Assembly: GCF_002009425.1 (NCBI RefSeq)
Contig: NZ_CP019936.1
Coordinates: forward strand, 2,219,297 to 2,283,296
DNA: 64,000 bases
Direction of reading: 5' to 3'
Source: Thiosocius teredinicola
GTDB taxonomy: Bacteria; Pseudomonadota; Gammaproteobacteria; Chromatiales; Chromatiaceae
Part shown: piece after piece, positions 21,042-40,859 of the stretch
Layout of the letters: each line of letters starts with the position of its first letter
Numbering within the stretch: position 1 is the first letter of the stretch
Program-made: the position numbers and the translations under genes
Notes under the pieces: model-generated
Database searches by the model: none
Seen by the model: the letters and a program-made list of their open reading frames with translations, nothing else
What the model was told of the DNA's origin: nothing

Positions 21042-21048
21042 AATAGAG

Positions 21049-21077: not shown

Positions 21078-21160
21078 CACGCAAACGCCAGCAACCTCGC
21101 CGTAGGCCGCGGTAGCCAGCTCCTGACCCGATTCATGAAACGTCAGCGAGGTGCCGAGGC

Positions 21161-23233: not shown

Positions 23234-23277
23234 TGGGTGACATGCATGTATCGCGAACAACAGCAGGAGATGAGGTT

Positions 23278-24282: not shown

Positions 24283-24299
24283 CCAAGGAGATCTCACCC

Positions 24300-24836: not shown

Positions 24837-24865
24837 CCAAAAACGAACTCTACGAGGAACGTGCG

Positions 24866-26832: not shown

Positions 26833-27650
26833 CGCTGCATGCCCATGATCTGGGGTTCGCAGTTGGCGGGCGCTGCCTGCTCGAACAGGTGGATCTCGAG
26901 GTATCCCCCGGTGAGGTCGTAGCCGTTGTCGGTCCGAATGGGGCAGGCAAGAGCACCTTGTTGAAACTGCTGAGCGGCGATCTTGTTCCCACATATGGTG
27001 GCGTCGCGCTCAATGGTCGACGCTTGCGAAACTGGAGCCGCCTGCAACTGGCGCAACAGCGCGCGGTGTTGCCACAGCACAATCACCTGAATTTCCCTTT
27101 CTCCGCGATTGAAGTGGTGTCGATGGGCAGGTCGCCACATCAGCGGGTGGGGCGCGGTCACGACCGGACGATTATCGAACAGGTGATGCACGAGGCCGAT
27201 GTGATGCACCTGGCGACACGACGTTTTTCAACCCTGTCCGGCGGCGAGCGCCAACGGGTTCACCTGGCGCGCGTGTTGGCGCAGATATGGGACGACCCGC
27301 TTGGCGTGGCGCGCTATCTGCTGCTCGACGAGCCGACCTCGGCGCTCGATCTGGCGCATCAGCAACGCACCTTGCAGATTGCCCAACGGTTGGCACATGA
27401 ACGCGGCATCGGCGTGGTCGCCGTGTTGCACGACCTCAACCTGACGGCCTGTCATGCCGATCGCGTTGTCTGTCTGAAGCAGGGGCGTATGCTGGCACAG
27501 GGCGTGACCGACACGATCATCGATGCACCGTTGCTGCAGAGCGTGTACGGACTGCCGTTGCACGTGGTGCCGCATCCGGCGCTGCACGGCAAGAAGCTGG
27601 TGGCGATGGGAGACGCCACGATGCCGGCGATGGCCGACACCGGCGCCTGA
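26829..27650 (+). CDS. hmuV: Haem ABC transporter ATPase HmuV
   Basis: 273 aa ATPase. Walker A GPNGAGKST, Q-loop LPQHN, signature LSGGERQRV, Walker B YLLLDEPTSALD and H-loop VLHDLN are all present. The insertion between signature and Walker B (AQIWDDPLGVARY) is typical of HmuV. The ATG at 26829 overlaps the permease stop. A longer upstream frame is spurious. The gene ends three bases before a convergent gene. Confidence 0.93.
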   Translation: MTLHAHDLGFAVGGRCLLEQVDLEVSPGEVVAVVGPNGAGKSTLLKLLSGDLVPTYGGVALNGRRLRNWSRLQLAQQRAVLPQHNHLNFPFSAIEVVSMGRSPHQRVGRGHDRTIIEQVMHEADVMHLATRRFSTLSGGERQRVHLARVLAQIWDDPLGVARYLLLDEPTSALDLAHQQRTLQIAQRLAHERGIGVVAVLHDLNLTACHADRVVCLKQGRMLAQGVTDTIIDAPLLQSVYGLPLHVVPHPALHGKKLVAMGDATMPAMADTGA

Positions 27651-27653
27651 TCG

Positions 27654-28130
27654 TCACCACCAAAGCCAGCCGTGACTGCCGGCAGCCGCACCCGCGACCG
27701 TCAGCAGGCTCAAGCTCATCAAGACCCAATGCAGGCGATGGATGCGTTTGAATACCTGTGTCGGGTTACGACGTGCAGATTCAGCGAACCAACGTTTGAG
27801 GACCAGCGGTTCGAGTACGAACAGCATCAGGGTGAACAACACCCAGATCGCGACCATGGCGTGCATCCACCAGTACGATGGATCGGCAAAGCGTGACCAG
27901 GCATTGAGGTGATGGACCAGGTAAAAGCCGGAGAGACCGGTGAGCAGTGTGGTGACACGCGCCTGCCAGGCAAAGCGGTGTTCGATCAGTTCGAAGAACG
28001 CGACCTGTTCCTGCGGCGATTTGAAGCGACGCACGGCGGGGATGATTACCGTGGTGACCATCGCAACGCCGCCTATCCACAGCACGACACCCAGCACATG
28101 CAGGATGCGCGCAATCCCGAACTCGGTCAT
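27654..28130 (-). CDS. Four-helix membrane protein, CopD-like
   Basis: 158 aa with four predicted helices and conserved-looking His residues (ILHVLGVVLWIGG, FYLVHHLNAW, WWMHAMVAIW, RIHRLHWVLM). The pattern resembles CopD/haem-b-type integral membrane proteins, so a haem or copper role is possible next to the haem operon. It converges on hmuV and is preceded by an HMA-like gene on the same strand. Confidence 0.7.
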   Translation of the reverse strand: MTEFGIARILHVLGVVLWIGGVAMVTTVIIPAVRRFKSPQEQVAFFELIEHRFAWQARVTTLLTGLSGFYLVHHLNAWSRFADPSYWWMHAMVAIWVLFTLMLFVLEPLVLKRWFAESARRNPTQVFKRIHRLHWVLMSLSLLTVAGAAAGSHGWLWW

Positions 28131-28149
28131 CGTCGATCGTCCGTCGGCT

Positions 28150-28521
28150 TCAGACGCCCTTGCTGAGCAACGCCGACAACGAGTAATTGACGCCTTTGCT
28201 CACCAGCACGTTCAGCGCCATCTTGCCGACCTGGCTGGCGATGTCGAACTGCCCGCGGTTGCCAGACGGCTTGCGCTTCGGCTTCGCTGCCGCGCGGGGT
28301 TTGTCGGCGTGCCCCAGGGTTTCGAAGATACAGTTGGCGCAGGTCTGTTGCGGGTCGTAGCAGACGGTAACGCATGCTGCCTTGTGGTTGAGGCGCACCG
28401 ATTGCACGCCATGAATATCGCGTAGTCGTTGCAAAACCGATGTGTGGTTACCGTGCGCGCCTCGCAAGGCCTTCGAACGGACACGAAGACGGCCGGGGAT
28501 ATGGTGAACATACTCATTCAT
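28150..28521 (-). CDS. HMA-like protein with Arg-rich motif
   Basis: 123 aa. The N-terminus reads HHIPGRLRVRSKALRG and is followed by a ferredoxin-like HMA-type fold (VQSVRLNHKAACVTVCYDP) with a CANC pair. The C-terminal half has Lys/Pro-rich linker and a hydrophobic, glycine-containing helix (GKMALNVLVSKGVNYSLSALLS). It shares the HxxPGRxRxR module with proteins encoded at 28682, 33830 and the N-terminus of the ATPase at 31650. It is divergent from the 28682 gene across a Fur-box promoter. Confidence 0.72.
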   Translation of the reverse strand: MNEYVHHIPGRLRVRSKALRGAHGNHTSVLQRLRDIHGVQSVRLNHKAACVTVCYDPQQTCANCIFETLGHADKPRAAAKPKRKPSGNRGQFDIASQVGKMALNVLVSKGVNYSLSALLSKGV

Positions 28522-28611
28522 TGGCGTGACTCCGAAATCAAACAGTCATGGTCGGGCGTCAATATGTCGAGCGCCGACTGGGGATCGGCGATTACCTTGC
28601 GCTTTATCTGT

Positions 28612-28640
28612 TTGACACGTTATTGCGAATCGTTATGATT
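28612..28640 (+). promoter_or_regulatory. Fur box overlapping promoter between two HMA-like genes
   Basis: TTGACA (28612-28617), a 16-base spacer and TATGAT (28634-28639) are overlapped by TTGCGAATCGTTATGATT, close to the haem-operon box. The predicted start near 28646 lies upstream of ATG 28682 and downstream of a possible TTG start at 28640, which supports the ATG. The same site could also control the leftward gene ending at 28150. Confidence 0.78.
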
Positions 28641-28681
28641 TGCAACAACAGAATTCTCACCGAAGTGCTCAAGCAGTTCCT

Positions 28682-29101
28682 ATGATCGTCAGTACCGTTG
28701 CCGGCCGCATCCGGGTGCGTTCCAACCGTTTGAAATCCGCAAAGATTGCGCAGTCCGTCGAGGCCAGGGTCAAGCAGCTGGCCGGAGTCAATGAGGTCCG
28801 CATCAACGGCGCGGCCGCCAGCATGGTGGTGCACTTCGATCAGCGTGCGGCCGACATCGAATGGCTCGAAGACCAGATCGAGGCCATCTGCCGCCCGCAA
28901 CCGCAGGCCAAGCCCAGGAACGGTTCGCGGCTGTCGAAACAGTTCAACCGGGCCACCAAGGTCGGCATGATGTCGACCCTGGCTACGTCGTTGGTCTATA
29001 TCGCGCTCGGCAAGAAAAAGCCGCATGCGCAATTCGGCATCGCCTTCGTGGCCTTTGCCGGACTGCATATGGCGAAGCACGCACGGCAGCTGCTGCGATA
29101 G
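28682..29101 (+). CDS. HMA-like membrane-associated protein with Arg-rich motif
   Basis: 139 aa from ATG 28682. Begins MIVSTVAGRIRVRSNRL, then an HMA-type beta-alpha-beta domain (VNEVRINGAAASMVVHFD) without the metal-binding CxxC. A basic linker precedes a hydrophobic C-terminus (MMSTLATSLVYIALGK, FGIAFVAFAGLHMAKHARQ). The family is the same as the small proteins at 28521 and 33830. Expression is expected under iron limitation because of the Fur-box promoter. Confidence 0.72.
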   Translation: MIVSTVAGRIRVRSNRLKSAKIAQSVEARVKQLAGVNEVRINGAAASMVVHFDQRAADIEWLEDQIEAICRPQPQAKPRNGSRLSKQFNRATKVGMMSTLATSLVYIALGKKKPHAQFGIAFVAFAGLHMAKHARQLLR

Positions 29102-29128
29102 CGTTACCGCGCCGACGGGCTCAAGGCG

Positions 29129-29488
29129 TCATGCCTCGTCGCTGGGTGCCTCACCGGTGGGCTCGGGTTCGGCCGATGTCGCAGCCTTCTTGCGTGCCGG
29201 CGCCTTGCGGCGTACCGACTTCTTGGCAGTCGCCTTCTTTGCGGCTGCCTTTTTTCTGACGACTTTTTTCCTGGCCTTGGGTTTCGCCTCCACGACCTCG
29301 TCGTCGGCCGCTTTGCCTGGCTTACCGGAAACCTTGTCGCGCAGTTCGTCAAAGCCGTCGCTGACCTTGTCACTGACATTGCCGGCCGCACGCTTGATGT
29401 CGCGTCTGAGCTTCTCGTCTTTGTACAGGTAAGCTGCCAGGCCGCCCAGCACGGCGCCGGCTACCAGGGGGATGAGTGGAAGTGGCAT
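29129..29488 (-). CDS. Membrane-anchored protein with histone-like Lys/Ala tail
   Basis: 119 aa. An N-terminal glycine-rich membrane helix (LIPLVAGAVLGGLAAYLYKDEK) is followed by an amphipathic YtxH-like segment (KRAAGNVSDKVSDGFDELRD). A strongly basic tail of KKAAAKKATAKK-type repeats resembles histone H1-like proteins, and a short acidic end closes the protein. Last gene of the leftward iron operon, 11 bases after the ATPase. A tail of this kind could bind DNA, phosphate or anionic mineral surfaces; which is unknown. Confidence 0.72.
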   Translation of the reverse strand: MPLPLIPLVAGAVLGGLAAYLYKDEKLRRDIKRAAGNVSDKVSDGFDELRDKVSGKPGKAADDEVVEAKPKARKKVVRKKAAAKKATAKKSVRRKAPARKKAATSAEPEPTGEAPSDEA

Positions 29489-29499
29489 GATGTCCTCCG

Positions 29500-31650
29500 T
29501 TAACGGTCGTTGACCGTGGTTTTCAGTGTACTCCCGTCCGGGAGTTGCAAGCTGCCGGGCGCACCGAGCCCGCGCAGCGCTTTCAATAACAATGCGACCG
29601 TCGTGCCGTTATGCAAGACCGCCGTACTGATCGGACTGAGCCAGCCCAGTGCAGCGCCGAGCATCACGCCGGTATTGACCGTAATGGCCGCACGATAATT
29701 CACCGCGACCAGTTGCATGGTCTTTTTGGCGATATGCAGCGCATTGGGCAGCAGCACGAGCTGGTCTTCGAGCAACACCACGTCGGCCGTGGCGCGGGCG
29801 AGTTCGGCACCGCGTGACATGGCGATGCCGACATCGGCGGCGATCAGTGCCGGGCCGTCGTTGACGCCGTCGCCGACGAACGCGACCTTGCGGCCTGCAG
29901 CGCGCAGATCGCCGATCACCTTGGCCTTGTCTTCGGGCACCTGTTCGGCAAACACCTCGTCGATACCGATCTCGTCGGCCAATGCCTGTGCGCGGGTACG
30001 ATGGTCACCGGTCAACATCACCAGGTGACGCACGCCCAGGCGCCGCAGTTGGCGCAACACCTCGGCCGCCTCGGGGCGCACGGTATCGCGCAGGCCAATC
30101 AGGCCGATCGCCTCGCTGCTGGTGCCGACATACAGGATGGTTTTGCCGGCAGCTTCGAGTTCGGCGATCTGTGCGCCAAACTCGTCGAAACGGATCTGTT
30201 CGTGTTCTTCGAGATAGTGGCGACTGCCGATCAGCAGGCGGTCACCGTTGACCGGGCACGACATGCCATGTGCTACCAGGTAGTCGACCTCGCCATGGTC
30301 GATATGGTTGAGTTTTTCGGCATGCGCCTTGCGCACGATCGCCTGGGCGATGGGATGGCTGGCGTGTTCCTCGATCGACGCGGTAACCGCGAGCAAGCGG
30401 TCACGTGGCCAGCGTTGTTCGTCGAGCACGACCACGTCGGTCACCTGCAGTTCGCTGCGCGTCAGTGTGCCGGTCTTGTCGAACACTACGGTATCGATCG
30501 CCGCCAGCGATTCGACCACGTCGGCACCTTTGAACAGGATGCCGTTGCTCGCCGCATGGAACAGCCCGGACTTGAACGCCAGCGGTGTGCCGAGTTTGAG
30601 CGCGCAGGAATAGTCGACCAGAAACACCGATTCGAGTCGGCGTTCTTCGCCGGTCAGCAGGTAGACCAGGCCGCCGGTCCCCAAGGTCAGGTAGACCCGC
30701 TTGTCGGCAAGCCGTTCGGCGAGACGTTGGGTGTGCGAGGTCTTGTCGAGCGAATCGTCGATGAAACGCGCGATGCGCGCGGTGGTCGTGTCGTCGCCGA
30801 CATGGCGTGCCTCGATGCGCAGGCGACCGTCCTCGATCACGCTGCCGGCGATCACCCGATCCATGACCTCTTTGCGCACCGGCACCGACTCGCCGGTAAT
30901 CGCCGCCTGGTTGACCAGGGCGGTGCCGTCGAGCACGAGGCCATCAACCGCGATCTTTTCGCCGGGGCCGACCTCGATGCGTTCGCCGGCGCTGATCGCA
31001 TCGTCGGGCACCTGGACCAGTACGCCGTTGCGCTCGACCCACGCGAGCGTCGGCTCGGGGCGCAGCAATTGGCGCAGCATGCGGTTCGACTGACGTTCCG
31101 TCTTGCGCTCGAGGTAGGTGCCCAGTTCCATCAGGAAGTCGGTGATGTTGGCGGTCAGGTATTCGCCCTTGCTGGCCGACAGACCGATGGCGACCGCATC
31201 CAGTACCTCGACCTTGATGCCGCGGTTGATGAAGGTGTCCAGACCGGTCAGCAGAATCTTGCTGATGTTCAGAAAGGTGGCGATGCGGCGTACCGGCGGC
31301 GACATGAAGGGCAGGGCGAGCATCAAACCGGCGCTGGTCAGCATCGGCGCCAACTCGGCGACCTGGTCGGGCTGCGTTTCGCCGCTCGGGATGCGTTCAC
31401 GGCGCAGGCCGCGCAACAGCTGCACGATGGCGTCGCGCGAGTCGGGCGAGCCATCGTATTCGAGCACCAACGATCGTGCCTTGTGGTTGACACGTGCCTT
31501 GGTCACACCGGCGATCGATTCCAGCCAGGTTTGCAGCCAGGAGAAATCGATCAGGGGATCGGCCAGCATCGGCAGTCGCAGCCGCAGCCGATGCGCGGTT
31601 TCGTGAACCACGCTCAGCCCGTTGTCACCGCTGTCGACGCGCATATCCAT
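29500..31650 (-). CDS. P1B-type metal-transporting ATPase, ferrosome FezB-like
   Basis: 716 aa. The N-terminus carries an HMA-like domain with an Arg-rich motif (HETAHRLRLRLP, 16-27). The actuator motif TGES is at 252-255 and the phosphorylation motif DKTGT at 391-395. The hinge reads VGDGVNDGPAL. The membrane ion site is YSCALKLGTP (SCA at 348-350) instead of CPC, which as I recall marks subgroup P1B-6, the class found in ferrosome (fez) clusters. Downstream of a ferritin-like gene and small membrane proteins in an operon with feoAB, it probably moves iron into a membrane compartment or across the inner membrane. Confidence 0.85.
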   Translation of the reverse strand: MDMRVDSGDNGLSVVHETAHRLRLRLPMLADPLIDFSWLQTWLESIAGVTKARVNHKARSLVLEYDGSPDSRDAIVQLLRGLRRERIPSGETQPDQVAELAPMLTSAGLMLALPFMSPPVRRIATFLNISKILLTGLDTFINRGIKVEVLDAVAIGLSASKGEYLTANITDFLMELGTYLERKTERQSNRMLRQLLRPEPTLAWVERNGVLVQVPDDAISAGERIEVGPGEKIAVDGLVLDGTALVNQAAITGESVPVRKEVMDRVIAGSVIEDGRLRIEARHVGDDTTTARIARFIDDSLDKTSHTQRLAERLADKRVYLTLGTGGLVYLLTGEERRLESVFLVDYSCALKLGTPLAFKSGLFHAASNGILFKGADVVESLAAIDTVVFDKTGTLTRSELQVTDVVVLDEQRWPRDRLLAVTASIEEHASHPIAQAIVRKAHAEKLNHIDHGEVDYLVAHGMSCPVNGDRLLIGSRHYLEEHEQIRFDEFGAQIAELEAAGKTILYVGTSSEAIGLIGLRDTVRPEAAEVLRQLRRLGVRHLVMLTGDHRTRAQALADEIGIDEVFAEQVPEDKAKVIGDLRAAGRKVAFVGDGVNDGPALIAADVGIAMSRGAELARATADVVLLEDQLVLLPNALHIAKKTMQLVAVNYRAAITVNTGVMLGAALGWLSPISTAVLHNGTTVALLLKALRGLGAPGSLQLPDGSTLKTTVNDR

Positions 31651-31653
31651 ACG

Positions 31654-32199
31654 TTACCCGCGGCCGAGCGCAGTCAGCCTGCGTTTGTGCAGCCACCAGG
31701 TGAGGCCTGCGCCGAGCAGTGTGCCGCCCAACAGCGCCAGTGTACTGTCCGCCAAGATGCCTGGCCGAGCGGCAGGTGCGCGCACAGGGTACTGACGTCG
31801 CGCTGCGGCACAGTGTTGAAACGCCGGCAGGTGATTGAACGCCGAGGCATTGCGCAGGTTCAGGAACACGTCGCGCACGTCGGGTTCGGTGACCTGCGTC
31901 AGCAGCTCGTCGTACATCCGGTAGTTGCCGATCTCGCCGCTGACGCCGGATTCGCAGGCATCGACGAGATCGGCGAACACGAAACGTTGCGCCTGCCATC
32001 GGTCCGCAATTGCGGGCACAGCGTGCGCTGTGTACAGCGCCAACAGCGCATCGATGTGACGTTGCTCGGCCTGTGCGATCACGGTGAAAGGCGCGACCTG
32101 ACCGTAGGTGTGCAACACGCTTCGATAAGTGGCACGTGCGCGGTATTCGTCGTCCAGCGCGGTGTGCAAGGCAGCGATTGTGGTCGGCGACAGGGCCAC
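31654..32199 (-). CDS. Ferritin-like protein with C-terminal membrane anchor
   Basis: 181 aa. The first half looks like a DUF2202/rubrerythrin-type four-helix domain: DEYRARATY and AEQRHIDALLALY supply the first E and ExxH ligands, and GEIGNYRMYDELL and LRNASAFNHLPAF resemble the second pair. A membrane helix near the end (LALLGGTLLGAGLTWWLHKRR) would tether it. Three bases separate it from the ATPase gene. It could oxidise or bind iron at the membrane; ligand completeness needs a structure model. Confidence 0.75.
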   Translation of the reverse strand: MALSPTTIAALHTALDDEYRARATYRSVLHTYGQVAPFTVIAQAEQRHIDALLALYTAHAVPAIADRWQAQRFVFADLVDACESGVSGEIGNYRMYDELLTQVTEPDVRDVFLNLRNASAFNHLPAFQHCAAARRQYPVRAPAARPGILADSTLALLGGTLLGAGLTWWLHKRRLTALGRG

Positions 32200-32202
32200 G
32201 GT

Positions 32203-32574
32203 TTACTCCTGCTGGTCGGCCGCGTGCAATTCGGCCTCGGCATCTCTGAAGCGTTCCTTCATCTCCTCGACACCGCCCTGCACCAGTGACCAGGCCTTGA
32301 CCGCCGTTTTGATCGTTGCGTGCTGAACCTTCTCGTTGGTCAGCAGATAGGCGACCGCTGCGCCGATCAGGGCGCCTTTGATGAAGCGCGGGTTGGTCAG
32401 CAGGTTGGTGCTGCGCACTGCCGGCGCATTGGCAACCGGGGGATAGGCGTACGCCATGCCGTAGCCCGGTGCATAGTTGGGCGGGGTGGGCGAGGCGTAG
32501 GGATTGGCGGGTGGCGTACCAGGCGGAGCATAAGGGTAGGCCGCGTAGTAGGGATGGTAGTAGCCGTTATTCAT
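32203..32574 (-). CDS. Pro/Tyr-rich small membrane protein with glycine-zipper helix
   Basis: 123 aa from ATG 32574, preceded by AAGGAG seven bases upstream. The first half is a low-complexity Tyr/Pro/Ala stretch (NNGYYHPYYAAYPYAPPG). One helix, FIKGALIGAAVAYLLTNEK, is nearly identical in pattern to a helix in the protein encoded at 33468. An amphipathic acidic tail follows. Such Gly/Ala-rich helices are common in small proteins of organelle clusters. Unknown function; likely a structural part of the iron compartment. Confidence 0.7.
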   Translation of the reverse strand: MNNGYYHPYYAAYPYAPPGTPPANPYASPTPPNYAPGYGMAYAYPPVANAPAVRSTNLLTNPRFIKGALIGAAVAYLLTNEKVQHATIKTAVKAWSLVQGGVEEMKERFRDAEAELHAADQQE

Positions 32575-32914
32575 CGTGCGACTCCTTGGATTTCGCGGTG
32601 ATTGCATACATCACGGCAGTGCCGGTGGCGACGCTAGCCAGCAGCGACAGCGCGGGATTACGCACGAACAGGCGGCCGACCGCGGTGGCGGCTGCGGTTG
32701 CCGCGCCGGCAGCCAGCCCGGCCTTGGCGGTTTGCTTCAATGCTGACGGCCAATCCGTCTGATCGGCACGCAGTTTGTGCAGATTGACCGCCGCGGCGCC
32801 GGTTGCGCCGACGATGGCACCGGTCTTGGCGGCCTGCAGCAGTTGGTTGAGTTCGCGTTGTTGTTGCCAGGGATCATTAGCCACCGGCTGGGACATCGGT
32901 ACGGGATAGTTCAT
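32567..32914 (-). CDS. Gly/Ala-rich small membrane protein
   Basis: 115 aa. A short polar N-terminus precedes Gly/Ala-rich hydrophobic segments (TGAIVGATGAAAVNLHKL, AGLAAGAATAAATAVG, LASVATGTAVMYAI). The gene overlaps both neighbours by four and eight bases, so the three are translationally coupled. No family recognised with certainty; composition resembles small proteins of ferrosome and magnetosome-like loci. Confidence 0.68.
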   Translation of the reverse strand: MNYPVPMSQPVANDPWQQQRELNQLLQAAKTGAIVGATGAAAVNLHKLRADQTDWPSALKQTAKAGLAAGAATAAATAVGRLFVRNPALSLLASVATGTAVMYAITAKSKESHDE

Positions 32915-33468
32915 GCGGGCTGCTCCTCTTCGTCAGTTGTGTGCTCGCCGGTTGTTTGCTCATTGTCGGTGTCGTCATCGCCCAGGCCGCCCAAGCCGCT
33001 TTTCATCGCCTCGGCCGTTTTCGCCACGCCGCCGATCAACGAATCGCGCAGCCCCTCGTTGGAAATCAGCAGCATCGCCGCGGCACCGACCAATGCGCCT
33101 TTCCAGAAATCGCTGTCGTCGAGATTGAACAGGTTCTTGAGCATGCCCAGGCCGCTGCTGTCGGCCATGTTGCCGAGTGCTGCGGCGAATCCATCGGCGT
33201 TGGCCGAACCTGCATTTGCCGCTTGCGCCGCTGACGGATCGATGCCCGGCATCTGCGGGGGAAGCTGATACGGCATCGGGCCGGCCATACCCGGCGACGG
33301 CGGCATGTAGGCAGACGGGTAGCCGTAGTAGGGCATTGCCCAGCCGGGGTGGTACGGCGCGTGGTGCTGTTGCCACGGGTTGGCCGCGTAACCCGGGTCG
33401 TTCGGCGGAGCCTGTTGCGCATCGGGTTGCGCAGGCGCACCTTGCGGATGGGGGTGTTTCATGTCCAT
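32911..33468 (-). CDS. Pro-rich membrane protein with glycine-zipper helix
   Basis: 185 aa from ATG 33468 (GAGGA six bases upstream). The first 90 residues are Pro/Tyr/Met/His-rich (begins MDMKHPHPQGAPAQPDAQQ; later YYGYPSAYMPPSPGMAG). The helix FWKGALVGAAAMLLISNEG at about 120-140 matches the pattern in the 32574 protein. A short acidic tail (DDDTDNEQTTGEHTTDEEE) could bind cations. Unknown exact role; context suggests an iron-compartment component. Confidence 0.7.
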   Translation of the reverse strand: MDMKHPHPQGAPAQPDAQQAPPNDPGYAANPWQQHHAPYHPGWAMPYYGYPSAYMPPSPGMAGPMPYQLPPQMPGIDPSAAQAANAGSANADGFAAALGNMADSSGLGMLKNLFNLDDSDFWKGALVGAAAMLLISNEGLRDSLIGGVAKTAEAMKSGLGGLGDDDTDNEQTTGEHTTDEEEQPA

Positions 33469-33494
33469 GTCGATTCCTCGTGATTCATATCGGT

Positions 33495-33830
33495 TCAGGT
33501 CTGTTGCGCTGCCGACACCGCTGCCGGGTTGGCCGCGATCAGACGCTGCAACAGCGACAGGGCCTGGTTTTCGTCGCCTTCGATCAGGGTCGTCCACCAG
33601 TCCGGCGCGATGCTCTTGGCGCGGTAGTTGACGACGACGGAGCCTGCGGCAGCATTGACGCGCACGTCGCTGATGCCGTCGATGGCCTGCATGACATCGT
33701 CGAGCACACCGGTGTTCACGCGCTTGAGTTCTTTCACCAGCGCCAGCTTGATGCGCAGACGGATCCGCCCCGGCACGTGGTGCACGATCTGCAGGTAACG
33801 ACGCAGTTCCAGAAAGGGTTGCAGGTTCAT
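33495..33830 (-). CDS. HMA-like protein with PGRIRLR motif
   Basis: 111 aa from ATG 33830. The motif VHHVPGRIRLRIK (residues 16-28) is followed by an HMA-type fold (DGISDVRVNAAAGSVVVNY) that lacks the CxxC. An upstream in-frame ATG at 33881 would overlap the previous gene and cannot be excluded. It belongs to the same family as the proteins at 28521 and 28682. Ferrosome loci also encode HMA-like small proteins, so a structural or iron-handling role is likely. Confidence 0.72.
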   Translation of the reverse strand: MNLQPFLELRRYLQIVHHVPGRIRLRIKLALVKELKRVNTGVLDDVMQAIDGISDVRVNAAAGSVVVNYRAKSIAPDWWTTLIEGDENQALSLLQRLIAANPAAVSAAQQT

Positions 33831-33868
33831 GGCAGGTTGGTACTCATCGGAAGACAGCTGTTCATCGT

Positions 33869-34432
33869 TCACGCCGCGCATGCCTCTATGTGGTCGATCA
33901 ATTCGCGGGCGAAGCGCCATTCGCGCGGCGCACCCGCGTCGTTGTCGTGCAGGTACACCTCGAGACCGACGTAGGTGAATGCCGGGTTGTCCCACAGCTC
34001 GCGCGGCACCCAGGTGTGCGCAATCGGCATACTGGCCTCGCTGAGCGATGCACCGGCCTGCTGTTCGACGATCTTCACCAGGCGCACCGTGTGTGCCTGA
34101 TCGAACGCCGCCTGTTCGGGCAAAAGGCACGCCAGCATGGCGTTGTCATGGCAATAGATGTCGGCGCATGGCGAGGTCGCGCTGCATCCGCTGTGCAGGT
34201 CGATCAGCAGGCGGTAGCCGCGTCCGATCTGCTGTTTGACCTGCAGATAGATTTCGCGATGGCGTGTCCGGTAATAGAAGAGTTCGTTTGCCTTGGGGCG
34301 TGCATGCGAGATGCCTTCGGGAATGCGCAACACGTCGACCCGTTCATGGTCGAGCAGGTCGGCCACCCGGTCGCCGAAGCCGAGTTCTTCGCGGTGGATG
34401 CCGGTAACGAGAAGAGTGGTAGACATGGCCAT
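33869..34432 (-). CDS. Putative zinc-dependent amidohydrolase/carboxypeptidase-like protein
   Basis: 187 aa. An HxxE pair (GIHREELGFGDRVADLL) and a later LIDLHSGCSA His resemble the zinc ligands of succinylglutamate desuccinylase/M14-type or N-formylglutamate-amidohydrolase-type enzymes. The protein is shorter than AstE. It starts directly after the CDF gene, in the middle of the iron operon, and no iron role is known to me. The assignment is tentative. Confidence 0.5.
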   Translation of the reverse strand: MAMSTTLLVTGIHREELGFGDRVADLLDHERVDVLRIPEGISHARPKANELFYYRTRHREIYLQVKQQIGRGYRLLIDLHSGCSATSPCADIYCHDNAMLACLLPEQAAFDQAHTVRLVKIVEQQAGASLSEASMPIAHTWVPRELWDNPAFTYVGLEVYLHDNDAGAPREWRFARELIDHIEACAA

Positions 34433-35398
34433 TCACCCCCCGCCTTGCCGGGCAGGGCAGCTCTCCGCGGTGCAGTGATTGATCTCCACGGTCACATGGG
34501 CGAGGTTTGCAATACCGGCCAGGCGTCGCTTGTAGGTTTCGGTCGGTGCCGGCTGATGGGTGACCAGCGATACGATGCAGGCCAGGCTCTGTGGGCCGAC
34601 GCGCCAGACATGCAGATCGGCAACCCGGGTATCGCTGTCGGCCTCGATCACCTGGCGGATCGCATCGCCCGTCGGACCGTGGTCTTCAGCGTCGAGCAGG
34701 ATGCTGCCACTGTCTTTCGCCAGGCCGAGCGCCCAGCGGCTGATCACGACGGCACCGACGATGCCCATCAAGGGGTCCATCCACACCCAGCCGAATCGCG
34801 CACCGCTCCATAGCGCAAAGATCGCCAGTACCGAAGTCATGGCGTCGGCTATCACGTGCAGGTAGGCGGCACGTACATTGTGGTCGTGGTGATGCGCGTG
34901 ATGTGCATCGTGCTCGTGGTGGCCATGATGGTGGTGGTGTTCGTGCGGCGCATCACGCAGCAGCCAGGCACTGAGCAGATTGACGACCAGCCCGATCAGC
35001 GCGACGGCCATTGCCTCTTCGAAATGCACGCTGCGTGGCTCGAACAACAGGCGTACCGACTCGACCGCCATCAGCAGTGCGACGACCCCCAGCACGATGG
35101 CGCTGGTGAAGCCGCCGAGTGTCGCGACCTTGCCGGTGCCGAAGGTGAAGGCCGGGTTGGCGGCATGCCGTCGAGACACGCGGTAGGCGTAGGCGGCGAT
35201 CCCCAGCGCACCCACATGGGTGGCCATATGCCAGCCGTCGGCGAGCAGTGCCATCGAGCCGGTCAGGCTGCCGCCGACCAGTTCGACGAGCATGGTGACG
35301 CTGGTCAGCGCGATCACCCAATGGGTGCGCTGTTCGTAGTGTCGTTGATCACGACTGCGAAAGTCGTGTTCGTGTTGCCAATCGCTGATCTCGTGCAT
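34433..35398 (-). CDS. Cation diffusion facilitator (DmeF-like)
   Basis: 321 aa CDF exporter with six helices. The membrane motifs are ADGWHMATHVGA in helix 2 and HVIADAMTS in helix 5. A His-rich loop (HEHHHHHGHHEHDAHHAHHH) lies between helices 4 and 5, and a cytoplasmic C-terminal domain ends the protein. The form matches the DmeF branch, exporters of divalent Co/Ni or Fe. Inside an iron-import operon, iron or accompanying metal export is plausible, but selectivity cannot be read. Confidence 0.85.
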   Translation of the reverse strand: MHEISDWQHEHDFRSRDQRHYEQRTHWVIALTSVTMLVELVGGSLTGSMALLADGWHMATHVGALGIAAYAYRVSRRHAANPAFTFGTGKVATLGGFTSAIVLGVVALLMAVESVRLLFEPRSVHFEEAMAVALIGLVVNLLSAWLLRDAPHEHHHHHGHHEHDAHHAHHHDHNVRAAYLHVIADAMTSVLAIFALWSGARFGWVWMDPLMGIVGAVVISRWALGLAKDSGSILLDAEDHGPTGDAIRQVIEADSDTRVADLHVWRVGPQSLACIVSLVTHQPAPTETYKRRLAGIANLAHVTVEINHCTAESCPARQGGG

Positions 35399-35442
35399 TG
35401 CTCGCTAGGCTTCCTGATGAGGTTAAAGCATGGCTGGCTGTA

Positions 35443-35664
35443 TCAATCCACCCACTCGTACATTTCGAGTGATGCGCTGTCGCATTTGCAGCAGCCGCTG
35501 CTGCAGGCCGTGCCGGTCGGCAGCTTCTTCACACGACCTTTGCTGATCCATTTCTGCAGCATGCCGCGCAGTGCATCCTGGTCGGTGTCGAATCTGTAGG
35601 CCATGTCCTTGAGGGCGACACGCCGATGCATCTGCAGGTAATCGCGTAGCTCTGACAGGATCAT
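35443..35664 (-). CDS. feoC: FeoC-like regulator
   Basis: 73 aa winged-helix protein downstream of feoB. MILSELRDYLQMHRRVALKDMAYRF begins the domain (residues 1-25) and DALRGMLQKWISKGRVKKLP completes the winged helix. A cysteine group CSSGCCKCDS matches the Cys-rich loop of FeoC, which may bind an Fe-S cluster. It follows feoB at 27 bases. Confidence 0.88.
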   Translation of the reverse strand: MILSELRDYLQMHRRVALKDMAYRFDTDQDALRGMLQKWISKGRVKKLPTGTACSSGCCKCDSASLEMYEWVD

Positions 35665-35691
35665 GGCGTGTCTCCCCGTTGCGGATGGCGC

Positions 35692-38040
35692 TCAGGCACC
35701 CTGCGGCGCCTGGCCCTGCAGCCGGGTGAGGTGGGTCTTGCCCCACTGGCCGAGGAACAGCACGCAACCGAAGAACACCGCCAGCATCGCCCCGATCCAG
35801 CCGGCCGACACCAGCGGTTGCTGGGCAAAGATGGCGGCCTGGTAGTAGATGGTCGCCGCGATGTAGGCGATGCCGGTCGTCCAACCGGCGACGAACATGG
35901 TCCAGCCCATATTGGTCTCGCGATAGACCGCGGCCAGCGCGGCAGTGCACGGGAAGTACAGCAGGATCAGCAGCAGGTAGGCGAACGCGCCGGCTGCGCC
36001 GTCGAAGCGCGCGGCCATTGCACCGAAGGTGCCGGTGGACACGCCTTGTTCCGCGGCGGCCGAGTCGATACTGCTGAGGTCGCCGACGTCGGTGCCGAGC
36101 GGATCGCCCCACATACCCATGGCGTCGCCGAGATTGACCGGGATACTGGCAAACGCCTCGTTCAGCCCGGCGGCAAGATCGAACGGTGCTTCCTGCGTTG
36201 CTTCACCCGCGTCGGCGGCATCGCTGCGCGCCAACTCGCCGTACAGTGAATCGAGCGTGCCGACGACCGCCTCTTTGGCGAGCACACCGGTGAAGATGCC
36301 GACTGCGGCCGGCCAGTTGTCTTCATGCATGCCCATCGGTTCGAACACCGGGGTGATACTGCGACCGATCTCGCTGAGTACCGAACGGTCGCTGTCTTCG
36401 TTGCCGTAGGAGCCGTCGGTGCCGATGGCATTGAGCACGTTGAGTACCAGCACCATCGGTACGATGATCTTGCCGGCGCGGAAGATGAAGCTCTTGGTGC
36501 GGTCCCAGGTACGCAGCAACACGCCCTTGGCGGTCGGGATATGGTACGGCGGCAGTTCCATGACGAACGGCGCCGTATGCCCCTTGAGGATTGTGTTCTT
36601 CAGCACCAGGCCGGTGATCACGGCGACCGCGATGCCGATCAGGTACAGGCCGAACACCACGTTCTGTCCGCCGATCGGGAAGAACGCCGCGGCGAACAAT
36701 GCATACACCGGCAGGCGCGCACCGCACGACATGAACGGCGTCATGACGATCGTCATGATCCGGTCGCGATGATGCTCCATGGTGCGCGTCGCCATGATGG
36801 CCGGCACGTTGCAACCGAAGCCGACGATCAACGGAACGAATGCCTTGCCCGGCAGGCCGATGGCGCGCATCGCGCGGTCCATCACGAACGCCGCACGCGC
36901 CATGTAGCCCGAGTCTTCCAGCGCAGAAAGAAACAGGTAGAGAAACGCGATGATCGGGATGAAGGTCGCCACCACCTGGATACCGCCGCCGATACCGTTG
37001 GCCAGCAGCAAGGTCAGCCAGGCCGGTGTACCGATACCTTCCAACCAATGGGCCATGCCGTCGACCAGCAGGGTGCCGGTGAAGATGTCGAAGAAATCAA
37101 TGAACGATCCGCCGATGTTGATGGTGAACATGAACATCAGGTACATCACCAACAGAAAGATCGGGATGCCGAGGGCACGATTGAGCACCACGCGGTCGAT
37201 CTTGTCGGACGCACTGCGCCTGACCTGGTGTTTGCGATTGACCGCGGTTGCCGTGACCTGGCTGACGAAACCGTAGCGTGCATCGGCGAGGTTGATGTCG
37301 ATGTCGTCGCCGAGTGCCTCTTCGGTGGTGCGTTGCAGTGCTTCGATCTCGCTGCGCAGGGGAGCGTCGACCAGCTTGCGTGCCAGCGAATCGTTTTCGA
37401 GCAGGCGCACCGCCAGCCAGCGGGCATCGACGTTGCGCCGCGTGGCCGTCTCGCCGATCTTGTCGAGCAGTGCGCCGATGGCCTGTTCGATCGGCGCGGC
37501 ATACGCGTAGCTTGCGCTCGGGATGTTGCCTTTCTCGGCGGTGTCGAGGATCGCCGACTTGAGCTCGGTCACACCGCGCCCGGTCGAGGCGGTCAACGGG
37601 ATCACCTTGCAGCCCAGGCCCTTGGCCAAAGCCGGGACGTCGATCTCCAGACCGCTCTCGGCGGCGACGTCCATCATGTTGACGGCAACCACCATCGGTA
37701 CCTGCATCTCGAGGATCTGCGAAGTCAGGTACAGGTTGCGTTCGAGATTGGCGGCATCGACGATATTGACGATCACATCGGCTTCGCGCGAGGCGACGAA
37801 GTCACGCGCGATCTTCTCATCGAGCGAGACGTGATCCTCGGTGACGTCGAGCGAATAGGTACCGGGCAGGTCGACCAGTTCGAATTCGATGTCGTGAAAG
37901 CGAAAACGGCCGATCTTGCGCTCGACGGTAACGCCGGGCCAATTGCCGACGCGTTGTTTCGAGCCGGTGAGCGCATTGAACAGGGTGGTTTTGCCGCAAT
38001 TGGGGTTGCCGACGACCCCGACGATGATTTTCTTCTTCAC
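35692..38040 (-). CDS. feoB: Ferrous iron transporter FeoB
   Basis: 782 aa. The N-terminal G domain has G1 GNPNCGKTT, G3 DLPGTYSLD and G4 VAVNMMD. Membrane core and gate segments ALEDSGYMARAAFVMDR and VPLIVGFGCNVPAIMATRTM are diagnostic. It imports Fe2+ across the inner membrane. It overlaps feoA by four bases and precedes feoC. In this operon it would supply iron to the storage genes. Confidence 0.96.
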   Translation of the reverse strand: MKKKIIVGVVGNPNCGKTTLFNALTGSKQRVGNWPGVTVERKIGRFRFHDIEFELVDLPGTYSLDVTEDHVSLDEKIARDFVASREADVIVNIVDAANLERNLYLTSQILEMQVPMVVAVNMMDVAAESGLEIDVPALAKGLGCKVIPLTASTGRGVTELKSAILDTAEKGNIPSASYAYAAPIEQAIGALLDKIGETATRRNVDARWLAVRLLENDSLARKLVDAPLRSEIEALQRTTEEALGDDIDINLADARYGFVSQVTATAVNRKHQVRRSASDKIDRVVLNRALGIPIFLLVMYLMFMFTINIGGSFIDFFDIFTGTLLVDGMAHWLEGIGTPAWLTLLLANGIGGGIQVVATFIPIIAFLYLFLSALEDSGYMARAAFVMDRAMRAIGLPGKAFVPLIVGFGCNVPAIMATRTMEHHRDRIMTIVMTPFMSCGARLPVYALFAAAFFPIGGQNVVFGLYLIGIAVAVITGLVLKNTILKGHTAPFVMELPPYHIPTAKGVLLRTWDRTKSFIFRAGKIIVPMVLVLNVLNAIGTDGSYGNEDSDRSVLSEIGRSITPVFEPMGMHEDNWPAAVGIFTGVLAKEAVVGTLDSLYGELARSDAADAGEATQEAPFDLAAGLNEAFASIPVNLGDAMGMWGDPLGTDVGDLSSIDSAAAEQGVSTGTFGAMAARFDGAAGAFAYLLLILLYFPCTAALAAVYRETNMGWTMFVAGWTTGIAYIAATIYYQAAIFAQQPLVSAGWIGAMLAVFFGCVLFLGQWGKTHLTRLQGQAPQGA

Positions 38041-38279
38041 GATGCATGCCTCTCGACAATCAGGCTGGCCGCTTCGTCTTTGCGCAGGCTCAGGCTGAAA
38101 CCGCGAACCCGGATCTCCACCGGGTCCCCCATGGGCGCGTAGCGGGTCACGCTGAACGAGACGCCGGGCGTCAATCCCATCGACAGCAGCTTCTTGCGGT
38201 AGGCCTTGCTGCCTTCGCCGAATCCGACGACGCGACCCGAGTCACCCACTGAAAGGTCTTTCAAACTGTTCGTCATCAT
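38037..38279 (-). CDS. feoA: FeoA, copy 1
   Basis: 80 aa SH3-like FeoA protein. GDSGRVVGFGEGSKAYRKKLLSMGLTPG is the family core (residues 12-39). It overlaps feoB by four bases and assists FeoB activity in the cytoplasm. A second feoA lies just upstream. Confidence 0.94.
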   Translation of the reverse strand: MMTNSLKDLSVGDSGRVVGFGEGSKAYRKKLLSMGLTPGVSFSVTRYAPMGDPVEIRVRGFSLSLRKDEAASLIVERHAS

Positions 38280-38304
38280 TGCTTCTCCTCGATGCGCTTG
38301 GGCA

Positions 38305-38556
38305 TCAACACCTGACGACCATGATCTTGTGTGCCATGCCGGCGCCCAGCGCGATACGCGTCTCGCCGCGGATCACCACGAGGCTGCCGCCCTGGCGCTG
38401 CGATACCAGCAGTTCGCTGCCGACGTTCAGGCCGAGCGAGGTCAGGCGCATCTCCAGGCCTTTGCCGCCGCGCAGCAGAAAGATCGACACGCGGTCGCCT
38501 TCGCCGGCCATTGCCAGGGGGAATGGGGCCTTGTCTTGATTGCTTGCGTCAGACAT
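38305..38556 (-). CDS. feoA: FeoA, copy 2
   Basis: 83 aa FeoA-like protein with the same SH3-like core (FLLRGGKGLEMRLTSLGLNVG). The N-terminus is polar. Two FeoA copies upstream of FeoB occur in some Proteobacteria and may form a larger FeoAAB complex. It is the first conventional gene of the leftward operon; a possible short ORF overlaps its start. Confidence 0.93.
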   Translation of the reverse strand: MSDASNQDKAPFPLAMAGEGDRVSIFLLRGGKGLEMRLTSLGLNVGSELLVSQRQGGSLVVIRGETRIALGAGMAHKIMVVRC

Positions 38557-38650
38557 GGGCAGTCCGACCGATCAGTACGCCGACCGACTGTGCGATGAGC
38601 ACAAGCGGGTCGTGTATCGTGTTGGGTTGATGCAGTGGCAGAGCCAGCAT
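38549..38650 (-). CDS. Candidate small upstream ORF, 33 aa
   Basis: A leftward frame from ATG 38650 encodes a hydrophobic peptide (ends LIAQSVGVLIGRTAHV) and stops eight bases inside the feoA copy 2 start. Such overlap could couple translation. No Shine-Dalgarno and no family; low confidence. Confidence 0.22.
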   Translation of the reverse strand: MLALPLHQPNTIHDPLVLIAQSVGVLIGRTAHV

Positions 38651-39099
38651 GTCCGTTGTCCCGTTAATGCGTGGGAACGATTACGGCTTTGGCTGGCGGG
38701 TGGACAACAACGCGAACAGGCTGTTGCCGACTTGGCTGGCGTCGTAACTTGGTTCGAAAATTACCGTTTCATTGCAGTCTTCTGCAGAACCTCGGTCAAG
38801 TGTGTTCTGCCGAAATGTTGAGAGCGGTCAAGATGTCGGGCGGGGCAAACAGGCTTGCGTCATCCAACGAATGAAATCGCTCGCTTCAGTTCGGTCGCTG
38901 TCAGGCGACCCGGCTACAACGAAGACACGGTCAGTATATCCTCGTGAGAATGATTCGCAATTTGATTTGGATTAAGTTAGTCGCATTTTTCACCGCACGC
39001 TGATTGGTTCGGTGCGGCGAGGTGCCGCGGATGCTGCGGAGACGCTAGCATAGCGTTTCGATTCACGAGTTATCGACAACACAGGAGCAATACGTCAGC
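38651..39099. other. Long leader of the iron operon, otherwise empty
   Basis: Between the promoter at 38933-38962 and feoA there is a leader of about 370 nt on the minus strand. A short rightward frame at 38649-38747 has no ribosome site and I do not support it. No terminator or riboswitch fold was recognised by eye. The right part (38963-39099) lies between divergent promoters and carries nothing else I can name. Confidence 0.4.
38933..38962 (-). promoter_or_regulatory. Fur box overlapping promoter of the feo/ferrosome-like operon
   Basis: On the minus strand, TTGCGA (38960-38955), a 16-base spacer and TATACT (38938-38933) are overlapped by TTGCGAATCATTCTCACG. The core TTGCGAATCATT is shared with the haem and HMA-gene boxes. 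Transcription would start near 38926 and run left through the feoA-feoB-...-29129 gene run with no convincing internal break. Confidence 0.72.
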
Positions 39100-40524
39100 G
39101 TGACAAGCGATACATCACTGCCCGTGCGGCATTCAGGTCGAGCATTGATGGTGCTTTTCTGTTGGTTAGCGGTATGCGGGTCTGCGGCCGCCGATGAGAT
39201 TACCGACCTGCTTACCGGCAAGGTGTCCGAATCTCAGCCGCCAATCGACCGCGTCATCTCCACTGGCGCGTCGGCACAACAAGACCGCAAGATCCGCCAG
39301 CGCCTGGGAGAGATCTTCGCCGAACTGGATACGTTGAAAGACGTCGGGATCAAAGTGAATGGCGGGGTCGTTACCTTGACCGGAGAAATTGGTTCGGCGG
39401 CGGTCGAGGAGCGCGCGATCGCGTTTGCACGCCAAGTCGAAGGCGTTGTCGAGGTGAAGAACCAGCTCACCGTCAGTCGTGATCTCGCTACCCGCTTGCG
39501 CAACACCTGGCAAAAGATCGTTGCATTCGGGGAATCGATCGCTGTCAGCGCGCCATTGCTATTGTTTGCAATCTTCATCGTCGTACTGTTCTCGTGGGCG
39601 GGCGGTTGGCTGTCGCGTCGACAGAGCCTTTACCGACGCATCAGTCCGAACCTTTTCATTGCACACCTGCTTGGCCAGTTCACCCAGATGCTCTTCTTCC
39701 TGCTGGGCCTGGTGGTCGCCCTGGTGCTGCTCGATGCGACGGCGCTGATCGGCACGATCCTCGGCGCGGCAGGGATCATCGGCCTGGCGGTTGGCTTTGC
39801 TGTTCGCGATACCGTCGAGAACTACATCGCCAGTATCCTGCTCAGCCTGCGCAATCCGTTCGAGGTCAACGATTTCGTCAACATCGACGGACACGAGGGC
39901 AACGTGGTACGGCTGACGTCACGTGCGACCATCCTGCTTTCGCCGGACGGCAACCACATTCGCATTCCGAATGCCGCAGTGTTCAAAGCGGTGATCACCA
40001 ACTTCACCCGTCACCCGGAGCGGCGTTTCTCGTTCGATGTCGGCGTGGATACCGATCAGGATCTATTGGTAGCCCAGGCACTGGCGCTCAAGACGCTGTC
40101 GACCATCACCGGTGTCGAGGCCGATCCCAAGCCGATGGCCATCGTCGAGGCGCTCGGCGATTCGAACGTGTTGCTGCGCATCTTTGCCTGGGTCGATCAA
40201 CGTAAGTTCAGTTTCGCGAAGGTGCGCAGCGAGGCCATACGCGCTGTCAAAACGGCGTTCGACGACGCCGGCATCGTGATGCCCGAGCCTATCTATAAGT
40301 TACGGTTCACCGACGGCTTACCAACCGCCGCCGGCAGTAGTGCCAACGCAACCCTGTCCGAAACTACGCACCAGGCACCGGAACCGGTCGCCCCGGATCG
40401 TCAGAATGTTGCCGAAGTGCAGGACGTATCCGCAGACCGCACGATCGAAGAAAAGGTCGAGGAGGAAGAGGCCATGCGCGGCGAAGAAAACCTGCTCGAT
40501 GCGAGCAATCCCAAAGAAATGTAA
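39100..40524 (+). CDS. MscS-family channel with N-terminal BON domain
   Basis: 474 aa from GTG 39100 (AGGAG at 39082-39086). A signal peptide-like segment (LMVLFCWLAVCGSAAA) is followed by a BON domain near residues 60-130 (INGGVVTLTGEIGSAAVEERAI-type core). Membrane helices and the MscS core follow: LIGTILGAAGIIGLAVGFAV is the pore region and FEVNDFVNIDGHEGNV the beta domain. The C-terminus is acidic. It is probably an osmotic-stress channel with a periplasmic phospholipid- or wall-contact domain. Confidence 0.87.
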   Translation: MTSDTSLPVRHSGRALMVLFCWLAVCGSAAADEITDLLTGKVSESQPPIDRVISTGASAQQDRKIRQRLGEIFAELDTLKDVGIKVNGGVVTLTGEIGSAAVEERAIAFARQVEGVVEVKNQLTVSRDLATRLRNTWQKIVAFGESIAVSAPLLLFAIFIVVLFSWAGGWLSRRQSLYRRISPNLFIAHLLGQFTQMLFFLLGLVVALVLLDATALIGTILGAAGIIGLAVGFAVRDTVENYIASILLSLRNPFEVNDFVNIDGHEGNVVRLTSRATILLSPDGNHIRIPNAAVFKAVITNFTRHPERRFSFDVGVDTDQDLLVAQALALKTLSTITGVEADPKPMAIVEALGDSNVLLRIFAWVDQRKFSFAKVRSEAIRAVKTAFDDAGIVMPEPIYKLRFTDGLPTAAGSSANATLSETTHQAPEPVAPDRQNVAEVQDVSADRTIEEKVEEEEAMRGEENLLDASNPKEM

Positions 40525-40859
40525 TCGTCGACCGCGTGCACAAAAGCAAACGCTAGCAATCGAGCGGCTGCGGGCGTCGGCCAAGAACCGCATGGTGTCC
40601 GACCGGATCTCACGTTTATCTCGACAGCTGTTGTAGCTAGTCCATGCGTTTCGGCTTTGCCGTTACGCATGGCGGATTCAAATCCACCCGAATCGGTGTA
40701 AATCAGCCAATCTTTGGCGGGCCCGTAGCCCGCTACCCGCATCGCACGCCGCTGTCTGCCTGACCGTGTCGTGCTTCGTGCTCTGCCATTCGCCGTGGCA
40801 TGCGCCTTGCTCAACAGTCACTGAATGTTTTGGACACAGACTGAAGCGAGGTGAATGTC
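40525..40859. other. Intergenic, nothing recognised
   Basis: 335 bases between the BON-MscS gene and a YqjD-like gene. No frame looks coding. A stretch near 40675-40700 resembles a tRNA T-arm (GATTCAAATCCACC) but no cloverleaf can be drawn around it. No terminator with a T-run. Confidence 0.45.

Follow-up and report, generated by a model that had tools for sequence, protein, structure and literature searches.

The window analysed here, a stretch of 64,000 nucleotides from Thiosocius teredinicola, a bacterium akin to sulfur bacteria, carries genes for ferrous-iron uptake and a module that by gene content is of the fez (ferrosome) type, as compared with proven fez loci by description only. The two stand in one compact row on the minus strand. 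We think it probable that the fez-type module has been joined to the ferrous-iron uptake operon and that import and compartment loading would be made together at iron shortage. The row had been described in a sequence-only reading whose coordinates were right: open reading frames and sequence give 13 leftward genes between 29129 and 38556, with a promoter-like site and a Fur-like box in front, both consensus matches, and two related HMA_2 genes just beyond. The features are as follows; the labels ferL, hmaF, hmaX, hmaY, gapA, gapB and gapC are given here.

38933..38960, minus: promoter-like site TTGCGA-N16-TATACT, its spacer holding the Fur-box-like TGCGAATCATTCTCA (12/15), by consensus matches
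38305..38556, minus: feoA1, FeoA domain (PF04023, 49.7 bits)
38037..38279, minus: feoA2, FeoA domain (PF04023, 74.3 bits)
35692..38040, minus: feoB, Fe(II) importer (PF02421, PF07670, PF07664, PF17910)
35443..35664, minus: feoC-like regulator (PF09012, 89.5 bits)
34433..35398, minus: CDF exporter, DmeF type (Co/Ni) (NF033827, 424.7 bits, cut-off 250)
33869..34432, minus: AstE/AspA-like metal hydrolase, tentative, with no Pfam match of its own
33495..33830, minus: hmaF, HMA_2, PGRIRLR, no CxxC (PF19991, 39.6 bits, cut-off 30)
32911..33468, minus: gapA, Pro-rich N-terminus and G/A-rich segment, resembles gapC
32567..32914, minus: gapB, small, Ala/Gly-rich, one borderline hydrophobic segment (hydropathy 1.57)
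32203..32574, minus: gapC, small, weakly YtxH-like
31654..32199, minus: ferL, four-helix bundle of DUF2202/rubrerythrin-like type, with a hydrophobic helix at the C-terminus
29500..31650, minus: P1B-6-type ATPase (FezB-like) by tree and motifs; DYSCALK 346-352, DKTGT 391-395, HNGTT 680-684
29129..29488, minus: YtxH-like, Lys/Ala-rich tail (PF12732, 25.8 bits, below cut-off 37.5)
28682..29101, plus: hmaX, HMA_2 (PF19991; the longer ORF 28640-29101 scores 35.8 bits and homologues align from residues 13-16 of it), start set at the ATG where homology begins
28612..28639, plus: promoter-like site TTGACA-N16-TATGAT (11/12), overlapping a Fur-box-like sequence
28150..28521, minus: hmaY, HMA_2 (PF19991, 35.1 bits)

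From feoA1 to the YtxH-like gene the intergenic gaps are 25, -4, 27, 44, 0, 38, 26, -4, -8, 3, 3 and 11 bases. The compact unit with feo that had been proposed is borne out by this gene order, and the same union is found in the nearest relative, G008. In 28000-39200 a single minus-strand sigma-70-like site was found, at 38960-38933 (9/12 matches, the Fur-like 15-mer inside its spacer); the total of two such sites on both strands, against 2.4 expected, is at chance level. The pattern TGCGAATCRTT, picked after the sites were known, has three copies in the window against 0.12 expected. A good Fur box is present at 11 of 58 loci, where about 6 are expected, and the best one in G008 reaches just 10/15, none being clear. 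No known RNA family matched at gathering score in 26000-41000, and a search for a conserved leader 5' of feoA1 gave nothing convincing in L014, L016 or L045.

The ATPase falls in a clade of 24 rows (support 100/100), apart from CopA-, FixI-, Cd-type-, Nia- and CtpC-like rows, in a tree where several reference-row labels were assigned in this analysis. Whether it might instead group with the Cu, Zn or Co classes had been raised at the outset; it is separate from the Cu-, Cd-type and Nia rows, in a tree that holds no Co-type (P1B-4) row. In place of CPC it has DYSCALK, with the SCA that we take to be the P1B-6 motif. Among 67 P1B-6-type rows, in which one contig appears twice, 66 have the pattern D[YF][SA]C..K together with a C-terminal HNG; the sole exception is an interrupted gene, L047. 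The ATPase's own HMA_2 domain stays below the cut-off (20.4 vs 30 bits). PMC9374683 lists a conserved HN in TM6 among the features of P1B6 transporters and describes small DUF6110 proteins as typically encoded with them; DUF6110 had no match among the small proteins scanned.

The small partners recur with the ATPase. We counted 65 ATPase loci, leaving out four outgroups (L040, L057, L058, L059), L022, which is on the same contig as L099, and the interrupted L047; the stretches often end at contig ends, and absences are upper bounds. Of these loci, 61 have proteins of the gapA/gapC type, 55 have gapB, 49 have small HMA proteins and 8 have a YtxH-like protein. HMA_2 above the cut-off is absent from all 14 control genomes, as against four in this genome, three of them within the cluster. 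In Azospirillum six adjacent genes read HMA2-HMA-small-small-YtxH-ATPase, which equals the number of fez genes given for R. palustris in PMC12016538. Clade, motifs and recurring partners together support the initial assignment, in which a P1B-6-type ATPase is accompanied by HMA-like proteins and small proteins. The three Gly/Ala/Pro-rich proteins had been called membrane proteins: their composition holds (G+A+P 39, 34 and 37%), and a membrane location is plausible, though gapA and gapC lack any strongly hydrophobic segment (top 19-residue means 1.01 and 0.97). A membrane protein at 27654-28130 was considered as a cytochrome partner and rejected, as it is just weakly UPF0093-like (18.5 vs 34.2 bits), and it is not counted as a part. 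It recurs beside hmaY at a single further distinct locus, L022, on the contig of L099.

Proteins of the ferritin-like superfamily have the ligands E, ExxH, E, ExxH in a four-helix bundle. FerL resembles the DUF2202/rubrerythrin-like proteins in its bundle and its E..ExxH..E..H order, and differs from them in its C-terminal hydrophobic helix, in an Ala where the fourth helix usually has an acidic residue and in scores below the Pfam cut-offs (DUF2202 20.5 vs 22 bits, Rubrerythrin 15.4 vs 22.8). E18, E45, H48, E89 and H123 are invariant in four ferL-type sequences, and residue 120, the position of the missing acidic ligand, is Ala. The AlphaFold2 model (mean pLDDT 87.1) has helices at 5-32, 38-58, 78-100, 106-136 and 153-177, the last at low confidence; the modelled fold agrees with a four-helix bundle and matches ferritin-like structures in Foldseek. 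A ferritin-like gene adjoins the ATPase at just 5 of the 65 loci, Arcobacter among them. The ferritin-like protein noted beside the pump is thereby a recurring neighbour, and its ferritin-fold model is a confident one. Two genomes in which the ATPase had no match have ferL homologues without the anchor close to feo genes.

The FeoA, FeoB and FeoC domains are all above their cut-offs, and the identities first given to the two feoA genes, feoB, feoC, the CDF gene and the HMA-like gene agree with Pfam and NCBIfam. The union of feo with the ATPase module is also present in G008, G029 and one genome of another class. At order level, 46 of the 55 listed ATPase matches were placed, the second-type ATPases of G633, G537, G637 and G631 and five partial matches being omitted; the linkage count took in 52 of the listed feoB rows and 73 CDF rows (split matches joined), and its counts are lower bounds. 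G596 was scored as without ATPase, yet has a partial match. A feoB upstream of the ATPase, on the same strand and within less than 10 kb, was seen in at least G000, G008, G029 and G543 among the 46; a rough binomial puts the chance of this at 4e-5 to 5e-4, with the density assumed and the loci not independent. At L045 the gene order is feoA-feoB-feoC-gapA-gapC-ATPase. Over the 65 loci, seven have a co-oriented feoB, one of them with a second-type ATPase without gapA-C. The genome has another feoB elsewhere, 57% identical to that of the row.

The CDF exporter had been proposed as a new part of the compartment, and this we reject. Its score is over the curated cut-off for DmeF (Co/Ni), from which it differs in being encoded within a feo row. 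Of the 73 CDF genes placed, at least 17 come shortly after a listed feoB on its strand, some of them in genomes without an ATPase match. Measured from the ATPase start, a CDF gene begins between 5 kb upstream and 4 kb downstream at 2 of 65 loci; in G540 and G633 a CDF gene lies 2-3 kb beyond the ATPase end. In G008 the gene is gutted, its middle lost. By these sequence comparisons the DmeF-type CDF is probably a feo accessory and not a compartment part. For the AstE/AspA-like protein, H13, E16, H80 and E158 are invariant in three sequences; the L021 homologue scores 18.5 bits for AstE_AspA_cat, below the cut-off of 25, and the model is poor (pLDDT 70, weak fold matches).

Compared with known systems, the row shares with fez loci a link to iron and a P1B-6-type ATPase whose partner genes are small or HMA-like; Fur-type control would be expected as well, since the fez genes of C. 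difficile, which has FezA and FezB, are repressed by Fur (PMC12574912). It differs in being joined to feoAABC, in its added ferritin-like and YtxH/Lys-rich genes, and in having a compartment that is a prediction from genes. In D. magneticus FezB is accompanied by FezC, a DUF4405-like cytochrome (PMC11334425); such a gene is absent from the cluster here, the two DUF4405 matches of the genome being far off, at 2045963 and 3626576. The order of two FeoA, FeoB and FeoC resembles FeoABC operons, but here the row continues into the CDF gene and the fez-type module.

In the reading that we prefer, Fur would leave the promoter at low iron and FeoAB would bring in Fe(II), while the DmeF-type exporter would clear Co(II) and Ni(II) entering alongside. 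The HMA_2 and small Gly/Ala-rich proteins may gather the P1B-6 pump in the membrane and help to form a compartment; the pump would load Fe(II) into its lumen, prepared for the return of iron, and the tethered ferritin-like protein might oxidise or buffer Fe(II) at the membrane. A pump made together with the importer at low iron would fit the filling of a store better than efflux.

It is unlikely, in our judgement, that no organelle is made and that the ATPase, together with the small proteins, builds a flat platform in the plasma membrane from which surplus metal is exported. The model would be the PacL-CtpC effluxosome, also a P1B6-like ATPase with a small membrane partner: PMC9374683 describes CtpC as P1B6-like, PacL1 clusters it in the membrane (PMC9374683 and PMC13043812), and in the tree the P1B-6-type rows and their Deinococcus/Gloeothece sister are followed, as the next group out, by two ATPases that have DUF1490 neighbours. 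However, CtpC keeps CPC, confers zinc resistance and has a DUF1490 partner (PMC9374683), whereas the ATPase here lacks CPC and DUF1490 had no match among the partner proteins scanned. HMA_2 partners are present here, and the annotation of the two DUF1490 loci that were read shows none. Export would be futile where a Fur-like site precedes both the pump and a co-oriented iron importer.

Less probable still is that the pump or compartment serves another metal (Co, Ni, Mn or Zn), with feo a neighbour for co-regulation only. The DmeF-type Co/Ni exporter in the same row would fit, but CDF genes follow feoB more than the ATPase, and FeoA-like genes lie near the ATPase at 13 of 65 loci (four of them with second-type ATPases). 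We give least credence to two separately transcribed units that are merely adjacent. In Thioalkalivibrio XN8 and S25 the module stands by itself in the 10 kb read to either side, and 58 of the 65 loci show no co-oriented feoB, several stretches ending at contig ends; against this stand the absence of any gap above 44 bases, the union in G008, and a minus strand in which no second promoter-like site was found in 28000-39200 and just two weak terminator-like sites of 5 pairs each were seen.

A stronger form of the preferred reading, a ferrosome variant in which iron import, pumping and oxidation are one co-expressed assembly line and a membrane-tethered ferritin-fold protein works with the P1B-6 pump, is possible but doubtful. 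Vesicle storage and ferritin chemistry are usually seen as alternatives; if this form were true, they would act together. The row bears on how ferrosomes are built, on the form of the metal that FezB transports and on the reason for making a store in starvation.

In the literature searched, two primary ferrosome papers being beyond reach, we found neither a feo-fez union nor a DUF2202 partner described. The arrangement of feo and a storage-type module in one row is new, the kinds of parts are known, and the system is not wholly new. The recurrence shows which small proteins almost always accompany the ATPase, and ferL is a candidate ferritin-fold partner for ferrosome-type pumps. The repeated joining of the module with feoAB ties P1B-6-type pumps genetically to Fe(II) uptake.

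The genome is a single contig of 4.79 Mb, and the window covers its positions 2219297-2283296. In this window, 13 consecutive minus-strand genes run from 38556 to 29129 with intergenic gaps of -8 to 44 bases, the compact leftward row that the sequence-only reading had described. Pfam and NCBIfam firmly assign FeoA (twice), FeoB, FeoC, a CDF exporter, an HMA_2 protein and a P1B ATPase. Pfam scores of the ferritin-like gene and the YtxH-like gene stay under the cut-offs, the three Gly/Ala/Pro-rich genes have no above-cut-off Pfam match and the AstE-like gene has no Pfam match. The names hmaF (the HMA_2 protein of the row), hmaX and hmaY (two extra HMA_2 genes flanking it, one per strand), gapA-C (the Gly/Ala/Pro-rich genes) and ferL (the ferritin-like gene) are labels coined in this analysis. 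HMA_2 is uncommon: it passes the cut-off four times in the window's genome, three of these at this cluster, and in none of 14 control genomes.

Further, another HMA_2 gene of this genome (G000:C1:2598090-2598518) has a P-type ATPase, in which PEGL replaces CPC, some 2 kb away. A hydrophobic, weakly UPF0093-like membrane protein (27654-28130) adjoins hmaY here and in locus L022. YtxH-like proteins with histone-H1-like Lys/Ala-rich tails are found at 29129-29488 and at loci L014, L022, L026 and L100; binding of polyphosphate or DNA by these proteins is speculation.

In a 34-row tree the window ATPase falls within a 24-row clade with support 100/100. Its sister group is formed by Deinococcus and Gloeothece ATPases, and the next group out by two CtpC-like ATPases from actinobacteria, which have DUF1490 neighbours. 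CopA-like, FixI-like, Gram-positive Cd-type and Nia-type rows lie outside the clade, so the grouping with Cu, Zn or Co classes that would have spoken against the sequence-only reading is not seen for the Cu-, Cd- and Nia-type rows used. The outgroup branches of this tree are long, and Co-type ATPases (P1B-4) are not among its rows. Several of the row labels are our own, based on motif, gene neighbourhood or presumed position. The clade replaces CPC by D[YF][SA]C with a Lys three residues on, and we take SCA to be the P1B-6 motif. Of 67 rows, among which L022 and L099 come from a single contig, 66 also show the C-terminal HNG. P1B6 ATPases are described as having a conserved HN in TM6 and as being typically encoded with small DUF6110 proteins (PMC9374683); DUF6110 had no match among the small proteins scanned here. 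The sister ATPases lack Cys in the ion-site motif (LDFASGIR in Deinococcus, L057; LDFGTGIR in Gloeothece, L058), and the Gloeothece ATPase has HMA2 and DUF5132 neighbours.

Profiles from the window genes were searched against the ORFs of 71 loci, 65 of which were counted. Genes of the gapA/gapC type occur at 61/65 loci (two such genes at 57), gapB at 55 and a small HMA protein no more than 4.5 kb away at 49. The remaining partners are rarer: a FeoA-like gene at 13, a downstream YtxH gene at 8, a co-oriented feoB at 7, ferL at 5, an AstE-like gene at 3 and CDF at 2. The four loci without gapA/gapC carry a second P1B-6-type ATPase, 42-44% identical and with motif DYSCAIK (L134-L137, in G633, G537, G637 and G631); they have none of gapA-C, and the next ORF, of 278-362 residues, contains repeated FeoA-like sequence.

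The ATPase is present in 50/210 genomes of the order (E 1e-120), in 8/397 of an even phylum sample that includes the window's genome, and, using the ATPase of genome G252 as query, in 9/58 genomes of that genome's family. Judged by the ATPase, the closest named loci belong to Chromatiales MAGs and Thioalkalivibrio. In Azospirillum six genes are adjacent, five of which match window-gene profiles; in R. palustris, ferrosomes are described as made from six fez genes (PMC12016538). Our putative identification as fez-type is based on the kind and order of the genes.

Of the 46 order-level loci placed, at least four (G000, the nearest relative G008, G029 and G543) have a co-oriented feoB no more than 10 kb upstream; in G538 feoB is within 10 kb on the opposite strand. 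A binomial estimate for 4/46 gives 4e-5 to 5e-4, a rough value, as the feoB density was assumed and the genomes are not independent. The order is feoA-feoB-HMA-gapA-gapB-gapC-ATPase in G029, plus a second gapB-like ORF, and feoA-feoB-feoC-gapA-gapC-ATPase-HMA in L045, from another class of the phylum. These union loci sit on different branches of the ATPase tree, and therefore the union probably arose more than once.

The exporter is DmeF-type. At least 17 of 73 placed homologues closely follow a listed, co-oriented feoB, five of them in genomes without an ATPase match (G676, G623, G031, G627, G590). In G008 the rest of the row is complete and CDF is reduced to about 90 N-terminal residues and a C-terminal scrap. 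CDF is best read as belonging to the feo operon, where it would perhaps remove Co/Ni let in by FeoB; its proposed role as a new compartment part is not supported, while the outline of the sequence-only interpretation stands.

An AlphaFold2 model of ferL (four sequences) has a mean pLDDT of 87.1; four of its helices are confident, and a fifth, at the C-terminus, is of low confidence. The top Foldseek match is the uncharacterised MJ0754, followed mostly by bacterioferritins and ferritins; the first seven have E 1e-4 to 1e-3 and TM about 0.6-0.75. E18, E45, H48, E89 and H123 are invariant in the four sequences, but in place of the usual acid, Ala stands three positions ahead of the last His. PF00210 ferritin-family matches in the window's genome number five.

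In G000, G008, G503, G644 and an Arcobacter plasmid, ferL is next to or close to the ATPase. Homologues occur in 9/210 genomes of the order; the five away from the ATPase have a short polar tail without the C-terminal helix, and in G030 homologue and ATPase are on separate contigs. Among the four genomes without an ATPase match, the homologue directly precedes feoA-feoB in G534 (L160), and in G643 (L162) one gene separates it from an interrupted feoB frame downstream; no feo gene was near it in the stretch read of G552 and G521. Homologues thus sometimes accompany Fe(II) uptake genes, and ferL seems to have been recruited, with an anchor, to some fez-type clusters.

Two sigma-70-like sites are predicted in 28000-39200:

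38960-38933, minus strand: sigma-70-like site, the sole one on this strand; its spacer holds the Fur-like box TGCGAATCATTCTCA
28612-28639, plus strand: sigma-70-like site, the sole one on this strand; located before hmaX, with a Fur-like box overlapping it

By chance 2.4 would be expected, and it is their position, not their number, that argues for both. TGCGAATCRTT occurs three times in the window against 0.12 expected, a pattern chosen after the sites had been seen; the third copy precedes a TonB-dependent receptor. Against Fur-like regulation count the best box of G008, with 10/15 matches, and the calling of boxes at 11/58 loci versus about 6 by chance; the best of these 58 are L138 (15/15), L039 from Arcobacter (14) and L045 (13). 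Beside the iron cluster, 21021-27650 holds a Fur-like box, a TonB-dependent receptor, a periplasmic binding protein and an ABC ATPase, likely for heme or siderophore uptake.

A flat efflux platform of the PacL-CtpC kind is the nearest alternative to an iron store. No DUF4405/FezC-type gene was found within the cluster, which counts against a plain fez label; FezC of D. magneticus is described as a cytochrome (PMC11334425). The compartment itself is a prediction from gene content. Being expressed jointly with an importer when iron is low would argue for a store rather than for a pump that detoxifies by export. Import and the fez-type module would be expressed together at low iron, and the store filled once iron returns; in D. 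magneticus, ferrosomes are described as accumulating when iron rises from low to replete levels (PMC12748827). The feo-joined row would then be a variant of a known system, with a predicted function.
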